Shown here: one piece after another, positions 15,312-16,670 of the stretch
How positions within the stretch are numbered: the stretch's first letter is position 1
Layout: each line of letters begins with the position of its first letter
NCBI GenBank assembly: GCA_015489765.1
Contig: WFZC01000040.1
Coordinates: 1-32,472, forward strand
Direction: 5' to 3'
DNA length: 32,472 nucleotides
Source: Desulfobulbaceae bacterium
GTDB taxonomy: Bacteria; Desulfobacterota; Desulfobulbia; Desulfobulbales; Desulfobulbaceae
The notes under the pieces: model-generated
Database searches by the model: none
The model's input: the letters and a program-made list of their open reading frames with translations, nothing else
Told to the model about the DNA's origin: nothing
Translations under genes and position numbers: made by a program

Positions 15312-15516
15312 TTTATCCAAAAATCGCCCACGGAAGATATGGCTGCCCATGCCGGAGCCGGAGATTTTCATTGTTCGTTGTGGCTGGCCAATATGATCCA
15401 GCCATGCTGGTTTATCCGAAAATCGCCCACGGAGGACATGGCTGCCCACGCCGGAGCCGGAGATTTTCATTGTTCGTTGCGGCCGGCCAATATGGTCCAG
15501 CCATGCTGGTTTATCG
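15311..15516. repeat. 99-bp tandem repeat, two full copies plus a partial third
   Basis: Copy 1 is 15311-15409 and copy 2 is 15410-15508; the array ends with a short partial copy (GTTTATC from 15509). The full copies differ at seven positions, all transitions, and copy 1 always carries A or T where copy 2 carries G or C. The array fills the space between the stop of the carboxypeptidase gene (plus strand) and the stop of the GH114 gene (minus strand). The unit is 33 codons long and stays open in a minus-strand frame and partly in a plus-strand one, but no start or ribosome binding site supports a gene. Confidence 0.9.
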
Positions 15517-16365
15517 ACAGGGAATACGCCAGCTGTCGAGATTGATCTTTTTCTTGAGCCAGTCAAAATTTTTCGCATTGGCCCTTGGGCAGAAATCAGC
15601 CGGATCGCCTGTGTATTCCACCCCGAAAACCGGTTTGCCGGCATGGACAAAGGGTAGCAGGGCATCACACTCATTATATTGAAAACACTGTTCATTAAGG
15701 GCCCAGTCAAAGTCGTTCACCAGCTGCTGGACCTGGTCTAGATCATTTTTCAGACCGATGGAAAGTCCGCGCCTGTGGGCCTGGGTGGCAAGCCAGCGGT
15801 TGAAGACAAGCTGGTCTGCTGCGGTCAGCGGGAAACCGGTGCTATTGGTGTAGCCGTCAATGTTGTCCGGCTCAATGCCGTCACATTGTTTTGTCACCGC
15901 CAGGTCAAAACGGGCGCTCAGGATGGGTCCTAACGTATCCAACCGGCGGATATCAACCCATTTTTCTCCGGACCAGCCGTCAAGATTTTGGCCTAAAATT
16001 TCTTGAGGATAACTGTCCCTGTCTGGACGCCAGTTTTCATAACTGCCGGTGCTGACATAACAGATAACCTTTTTACCGTTCTGGTGGAGCTGGTCAATAA
16101 CGGACTTTGGCGTGTCAAAAAGATCGATGTCGTACATGTCGACATCAATTGAGGTATCTATGGTGCCGCTGAGCTGCCACTGCCAGCTTGTGCCAGGTCC
16201 TGGCCGCCACCAGGAAGGTGACGGTTGATGGTGGCCGTGGGCGGCCAGGATAGGCGGCAGGGCATGGAGCAGCATTGACTGGTCACCGTGGCCGATTCCG
16301 GGTACCAGGAGCAGGCAAAGGCAGAGCAGGGTCCTGGAACCGTGGGCCCATGATAACAGGCGCAT
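15511..16365 (-). CDS. exported GH114-type (polygalactosaminidase-like) glycoside hydrolase
   Basis: A protein of about 284 residues with an N-terminal signal peptide (hydrophobic LLCLCLLLVPGIG, cleavage near residue 27). The mature part resembles glycoside hydrolase family 114 / TM1410-like TIM barrels: WQWQLSG near 61-67, MYDIDLFDT, KKVICYVSTGSYENWRPD (strand plus substrate loop), WVDIRR, and CDGIEPDNIDGY with acidic candidates E165, D167 and D170. Characterised GH114 enzymes cut alpha-1,4-polygalactosamine or related exopolysaccharides. The ATG at 16365 is preferred; an ATG at 16377 adding four residues overlaps the upstream stop. It starts four bases after the selenoprotein-like gene ends, so the two are probably translated together. 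The substrate here is inferred from the family only. Confidence 0.85.
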   Translation of the reverse strand: MRLLSWAHGSRTLLCLCLLLVPGIGHGDQSMLLHALPPILAAHGHHQPSPSWWRPGPGTSWQWQLSGTIDTSIDVDMYDIDLFDTPKSVIDQLHQNGKKVICYVSTGSYENWRPDRDSYPQEILGQNLDGWSGEKWVDIRRLDTLGPILSARFDLAVTKQCDGIEPDNIDGYTNSTGFPLTAADQLVFNRWLATQAHRRGLSIGLKNDLDQVQQLVNDFDWALNEQCFQYNECDALLPFVHAGKPVFGVEYTGDPADFCPRANAKNFDWLKKKINLDSWRIPCR

Positions 16366-16369
16366 GGCC

Positions 16370-16633
16370 TCAACCATCCCCGGTATGCAGAAAATCGCGA
16401 ATCTGTTGTTCATTAAGAAAAATACCCGAAAGCCGTTTTCCGTCAAGCTCCAGGGTAGGGATCATTGTTATTCCCTCTTTCACAGCGGTCAGGGGATGGG
16501 CAAGTACATCCACCTCCTTGATTTGAAAGTCATTCATCTCCTGCTGTATCTTGCGCAGCGCCCGGCCGGCCATCATGCAGCGCGGTCAGAGAGCTGATTT
16601 GTAGAAGAGTATTGTTCTGTTTTTCTGGGTCAT
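16370..16633 (-). CDS. predicted thioredoxin-fold selenoprotein with a U-x-x-C motif
   Basis: Read with the UGA at 16586-16588 as selenocysteine, this gives an 87-residue protein: 15 residues ending FYKSAL, then Sec-Pro-Arg-Cys (Sec16, Cys19), then MMAGRALRKIQ and a thioredoxin/glutaredoxin-like tail containing the cis-Pro-type motif MIPTLEL and a DGKRLSG turn. The ATG at 16633 has an excellent AGGGAGG ribosome binding site (16640-16646), whereas the ATG codons just after the UGA have none. The residue before the helix in this fold is normally the reactive cysteine of CxxC, exactly where the UGA falls. A hairpin with bacterial SECIS geometry follows. It is probably a thiol/selenol oxidoreductase or reductase partner. 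The alternative is a nonsense-mutated pseudogene; the intact flanks and redox-motif placement argue against that. Confidence 0.8.
16553..16583 (-). promoter_or_regulatory. candidate bacterial SECIS hairpin
   Basis: In the minus-strand mRNA, GCGCUGC (16583-16577) pairs with GCUGCGC (16559-16553), six pairs plus a U-U mismatch. A six-base bulge (AUGAUG) is followed by an upper GCC/GGC stem and a five-base apical loop GGCCG (16567-16563). The loop starts with GG and begins 18 bases after the UGA, within the 16-37 base range known for SelB-recognised bSECIS elements. Folded by eye. Confidence 0.6.
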
Positions 16634-16670
16634 TGTGTGCCTCCCTGGAAGTGGTGTGGAGTATTGTGCA

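Follow-up and report, generated by a model that had tools for sequence, protein, structure and literature searches.

The window analysed here (32,472 nucleotides of the Desulfobulbaceae bacterium assembly GCA_015489765.1, contig WFZC01000040.1) carries on its minus strand, at positions 16633-16370, what is almost certainly a selenoprotein gene, in which the UGA at codon 16 is decoded as selenocysteine (Sec) and the predicted product is a thioredoxin-fold thiol-disulfide oxidoreductase with a U-P-R-C active site. Gene callers can miss or truncate this conserved redox gene wherever its UGA form is carried. We describe below the reading frame and its conservation, the hairpin that follows the UGA, the fold, and the exchange of Sec and Cys among relatives.

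Reading frame and conservation on both sides of the UGA

Direct reading of the sequence finds a Shine-Dalgarno AGGGAGG (16640..16646, minus strand) 6 nt 5' of an ATG at 16633-16631, which opens a frame of 87 codons with a terminal TGA (16370..16633, minus strand). The frame is interrupted once, by a UGA at codon 16 (16586..16588, minus strand), where Cys is aligned in 20 orthologues. The ribosome binding site, the start codon and the single UGA are all as the initial annotation gave them; it counted 70 codons after the UGA, and the actual number is 71 sense codons, followed by the TGA at 16372-16370. The predicted 87-residue product is MTQKNRTILFYKSALUPRCMMAGRALRKIQQEMNDFQIKEVDVLAHPLTAVKEGITMIPTLELDGKRLSGIFLNEQQIRDFLHTGDG, which contains FYKSAL-U-PRC and MIPTL. 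The TGC at 16577..16579 (minus strand) encodes Cys19, the predicted resolving cysteine of U-P-R-C, and the CCT at 16457..16459 (minus strand) encodes Pro59, the cis-Pro of the thioredoxin fold, which lies in the IPTL motif previously noticed 3' of the UGA; both residues are invariant in our alignment. The true stop (16370..16372, minus strand) is also a UGA and ends the same frame, and decoding of UGA is therefore context dependent here.

A search with the family gave matches in 48 of 96 related genomes. Forty-seven loci, the window's included, could be read in frame as family members, and at the codon corresponding to UGA-16 every one has either TGA (27 loci) or TGC/TGT (20 loci); a further set of 39 read members, from which L145 was left out, adds 38 with UGA and one with Cys at residue 16. 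In a 30-sequence alignment [U/C]-P-R-C, L26, P59 and F81 are invariant. Close copies are present in three Desulfobulbaceae MAG contigs (JALVAI010000173.1, WGCP01000270.1 and JANTGH010000042.1), and the recurrence of the UGA in independent assemblies excludes a sequencing error. Upstream of the UGA the window gene and its nearest relative differ by dN 0.00 and dS 0.25, and downstream by dN 0.03 and dS 0.31; for the next relative the values are dN 0.09 and dS 0.64 upstream, and 0.04 and 0.60 downstream. On each flank of the UGA dN/dS is well below 1, a mark of purifying selection on these codons, and neither a stop with reinitiation nor a pseudogene nor a sequencing error can account for this. 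In one same-genus UGA copy (L109, G006:C38:3655-3771) some 44 residues between the active site and the C-terminal helix are missing with the frame kept, through either a deletion or an assembly artefact.

These data bear directly on the other ways in which the frame might be read. UGA-16 might be an ordinary stop, with the upstream part acting as a leader peptide or with a separate protein beginning at M20, which would have exactly the 68 residues that the initial annotation gave for the fragment after the UGA. M20 and M21 do come directly after the motif, and Met is found there in many UGA orthologues too; however, the Cys orthologues read through codon 16 with the same upstream sequence, the upstream codons are under purifying selection, a start at M20 would delete strand 1 together with both active-site residues, and Met20 is missing in several UGA orthologues (L036 and L037, for example), and we judge an ordinary stop very improbable. 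Less credible again is corruption of a TGC or TGT to TGA, whether in a pseudogene or by sequencing error: the gene is short, its frame has a lone internal stop and the assembly is a draft (387 contigs), which might suggest it, but UGA occupies this codon in 27 fully read genes and another 38 loci, and selection has continued to act downstream of it. Genome-wide reassignment of UGA (to Trp, for example), as opposed to local recoding, has the open frame as the one point in its favour and is the least probable of the three; it is removed by the UGA that terminates the same frame (the gene in L010 and L011 ends likewise), the aligned residue is Cys and never Trp, and the Sec machinery described below is present.

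A hairpin downstream of the UGA and the selenocysteine machinery

A SECIS-like hairpin follows the UGA at 16555..16569 (minus strand), with a core stem CGGC/GCUG (16568-16565 with 16559-16556) and an apical loop CGGGC (16564-16560) that lies 21 nt past the UGA; the outermost pair (16569/16555) is C-C in the window copy and unpaired, so that four core pairs only are formed. Published rules for bacterial SECIS elements call for a loop of 3-9 nt with a G in its first two positions (G[G/U]), a stem of at least 4 bp, and a loop 16-37 nt past the UGA (PMC13188914), and the window hairpin agrees with them in loop size, stem, loop G and spacing (21 nt). Its free energy depends on the boundaries chosen, about -6.6 kcal/mol for the isolated hairpin and -14.4 for the 54-nt region, where the rule is -7.5 or lower. 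The window's post-UGA region is no more stable than shuffled sequences (z +1.85), and we dropped the thermodynamic stability of this region as an argument for a SECIS. Since the window hairpin is unremarkable by thermodynamics alone, the evidence for a SECIS is comparative.

When a five-pair stem with a five-base loop and 21 nt spacing is applied to 21 UGA genes, 95 of 105 cells are paired, as against 64.8 +/- 4.1 (never more than 76 over 200 runs) when synonymous codons are shuffled so that the encoded proteins do not change; nine Cys genes have 24 of 45 cells paired, against 20.2 +/- 2.1 in their own shuffles. The covariation score of the stem is 0.376, compared with 0.203 +/- 0.024 in column shuffles, none of which reached it in 500 trials, and a slide of the partner strand by 1 to 3 columns makes the pairing collapse. 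The hairpin position was picked on the same sequences on which it was tested, a bias that is lessened, and not abolished, by a second gene set and by scanning hairpin positions between -42 and +130. Over 26 UGA genes that scan puts the 21-nt hairpin at the top, with 116 of 130 cells paired (the runner-up has 100), and the same position in 20 Cys genes has 46 of 100 cells paired; most Cys orthologues have a degraded hairpin. Nearly all loops of the 21-nt form read CGKGN.

Four of the 26 UGA genes scanned (L071, L078, L095 and L102) lack a hairpin that obeys every rule. L090 and L093 are without the 21-nt hairpin and have an alternative one 28 nt past the UGA. This 28-nt position was first spotted in these two genes, before the further set was read; in that set all 38 UGA genes have at least four of the five stem pairs at a spacing of 21 or 28, and 28 of 28 further family f12 genes have all five pairs in the 28-nt form, making 30 with L090 and L093. 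Paired changes occur in this form as well (GC/AT at one pair and CG/TA at another), and its loops are UGGAN or UGUAY. Among the genes read, the 28-nt position is limited to family f12 (L090, L093, L110-L121, L132-L144 and L146-L148).

The source genome (a draft of 3.89 Mb in 387 contigs, 97% complete) has all four of the genes whose presence the initial annotation had proposed to check: tRNA-Sec (selC) on C150 with 72.3 bits against a cut-off of 47, selA on C193 (633.9 bits), selB on C369 (372.9 bits, full model length) and selD on C31 (367 bits). The selD gene (G000:C31:21204-22136) has one internal in-frame TGA of its own. Sec-containing selenophosphate synthetases are known, which this gene resembles, and the window's gene is thus apparently not the only selenoprotein gene of this genome. 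We also considered co-occurrence of the UGA form with selA and dropped it as uninformative, because 86 of the 96 related genomes have a selA match. One complete genome in two contigs (G095) has the UGA form and a tRNA-Sec and gave no selA match; either its selA escaped the search or this genome makes Sec-tRNA in another way.

With the machinery in the genome, relatives that have Cys or UGA at residue 16 and a UGA that recurs between assemblies, the reading of this UGA as the first position of a thioredoxin-fold CxxC in a selenoprotein has come through each of the ways in which the initial annotation held that it might fail. In the mechanism that we propose, the hairpin just 3' of UGA-16 would recruit SelB with GTP and Sec-tRNA-Sec, and the SelB complex would insert Sec in place of termination; the second UGA, at codon 88, would lie beyond the hairpin's reach, and translation would end there. 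The product, in whose sequence no signal peptide is evident, would be a short cytosolic thioredoxin-fold thiol-disulfide oxidoreductase; Sec16 would be the nucleophile that attacks substrate disulfides (or an oxidised thiol), and Cys19 would resolve the resulting selenenylsulfide.

Fold, family membership and novelty

An AlphaFold2 model of the product (pLDDT 84, pTM 0.74) has a thioredoxin fold; its elements run beta-alpha-beta-alpha-beta-beta-alpha, with the cis-Pro opposite the CxxC, as in the thioredoxin superfamily, and the best PDB matches by Foldseek are thioredoxins (TM on the query 0.76-0.82). The thioredoxin model PF00085 is just reached, at 25.9 bits against a gathering score of 23.5. 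More specific models do not take the protein in: the classical thioredoxin model TIGR01068 (TrxA) gives 21 against 96.8 bits, and the motif here is UPRC or CPRC and not CGPC; the glutaredoxin model PF00462 gives 16.4 bits against a gathering score of 22.9, and the alignment is without the GG motif of the glutathione site; and the model for the MJ0307 family (TIGR00411) gives 29.2 bits against a cut-off of 92.75. The window protein is absent among the matches listed for the UXX-star NCBIfam models (NF041212, NF041211 and NF047338), and no NCBIfam model, those of selenoprotein families included, is above its cut-off for it.

Among solved structures the profile matches best a short thioredoxin of the MJ0307 type (PDB 1fo5, E 2e-12). 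It too has about 85 residues, a short N terminus, CPxC and a cis-Pro, whereas its solved chain has CPHC where the family here has UPRC or CPRC; TIGR00411 is weakly matched by 30 of 30 aligned members. Known Sec-thioredoxins are of ordinary thioredoxin length, in contrast to the 87 residues of the window protein. Sec-thioredoxins (UxxC, PF00085) share with it the thioredoxin fold, Sec at the N-terminal attacking position and a SECIS directly downstream. With Sec-glutaredoxin (UxxC, PF00462) it has in common its size and the N-terminal U/C-P-x-C motif; however, the family here is without the GG glutathione-site motif after the cis-Pro region, and the fold search gives thioredoxins first. UXX-star (seleno)proteins are small glutaredoxin-like folds with Sec in an N-terminal motif, and some family members match them weakly (best E 2e-4), but the U-x-x-C motif of the window protein includes a resolving Cys, where UXX-star family 1 is listed with U-x-x-T.

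Thioredoxin-like selenoproteins with a UxxC motif are well established (PMC13188914, PMC9312934, PMC1088965), and a Sec-containing thioredoxin with UxxC is listed as experimentally verified (PMC13188914). Selenoprotein genes are numerous in Desulfobulbia (PMC12013277), and for Desulfolithobacter dissulfuricans GF1, which appears to be one of the relatives that carry the UGA form, the report is of 22 selenoprotein genes that were already known and none that is new (PMC12013277). We found no description of a UPRC motif or subfamily in the papers searched. The initial annotation's word "unrecognised" thus holds in that no NCBIfam selenoprotein model reaches its cut-off and no UPRC protein was found in those papers; the part in doubt is that the UPRC gene may have been counted in PMC12013277 under the general name of thioredoxin or glutaredoxin.

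It is a tenable, if somewhat less probable, view that this is a Sec-thioredoxin or Sec-glutaredoxin already catalogued and not a distinct subfamily, a naming matter that is compatible with the selenoprotein reading. In its favour are the PF00085 score above the gathering score (25.9 vs 23.5 bits), the reviews that list UxxC thioredoxin and glutaredoxin selenoproteins (PMC13188914) and the absence of new families from the published account of what appears to be the GF1 relative (PMC12013277), whereas the NCBIfam thioredoxin, glutaredoxin and UXX-star models are all far below cut-off, the motif is CPRC or UPRC as against CGPC or CPYC, and in the phylum sample the family is confined to one order. 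We take the UPRC subfamily to be a new, lineage-restricted addition to the UxxC thioredoxin-like selenoproteins, one that may already be listed under a general name. We hold as evenly poised the fuller proposal of an undescribed, order-restricted subfamily (a UPRC mini-thioredoxin) in most Desulfobulbales, with several Sec/Cys switches, two genera in which almost no other nucleotide near the codon has changed, and SECIS elements at 21 and 28 nt. If it is true, the UPRC mini-thioredoxin would be a natural system in which to watch Sec/Cys exchange and SECIS turnover, a gain that consists of a subfamily and a clean evolutionary test case and not of a new principle.

Sec/Cys exchange, distribution and genomic neighbourhood

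By profile search 158 of the 258 genomes sampled from Desulfobulbales, an order of sulfur-cycling bacteria, have the gene. About 67 among the matches listed report an internal TGA; these have been read individually in part, and in at least one case, G078, the TGA is the gene's terminal stop. Across the phylum, 395 sampled genomes gave matches at 1e-8 only within Desulfobulbales; coverage beyond the phylum is that of a single close-relative scan, and the plasmid and phage records searched gave no family copy.

Parsimony places at least eight U/C changes on the tree, which is short (92 columns), and its strongly supported branches force only two of them. Particular genera allow the exchange to be seen more closely. 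In genus g33, which has Cys genes (L089 and L094) beside Sec genes (L112-L114), a stretch of 48 nt that starts at the active-site codon is the same in L113 (Sec) and L089 (Cys) but for TGA versus TGC. The g33 Cys genes have an intact 28-nt SECIS-like hairpin (five of five pairs in L089). The switches appear to be recent changes of a single nucleotide, and the hairpin in the Cys genes may be a fossil SECIS; the retained hairpin favours a recent loss of Sec to Cys, and constraint on the protein could also preserve it. A second pair, L131 (Sec) and L104 (Cys) of genus g36, has two differences in 48 nt and points to an independent switch. The Sec/Cys pairs that differ by one nucleotide in 48, whose Cys copies retain the hairpin, offer a natural comparison, both for the benefit of selenium to a thiol oxidoreductase and for the loss or movement of a SECIS.

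A block of neighbours divergent from the gene (a histone-deacetylase family protein, a CBS-domain protein, a CoA-ligase type and an acetyl-CoA hydrolase/GNAT) is kept at about 22 loci; this block adjoins both the Sec and the Cys forms, which are therefore orthologues that share a locus. Other families have the gene near an FtsH-like/FolP-like block (named from sequence by eye). Because neighbourhoods differ between families, we read synteny as a sign of orthology and rejected the neighbours as a guide to function. In the window a frame for a GH114 family glycoside hydrolase (15511-16365, minus strand) has its ATG four bases past the selenoprotein stop; no GH114 cluster was seen in the list of neighbours that the relatives have in common, and for this reason we claim no conserved operon. 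Finally, both forms of the gene occur in a single bin (G013), with Cys and Sec copies at G013:C345 and G013:C193 (L092 and L106).
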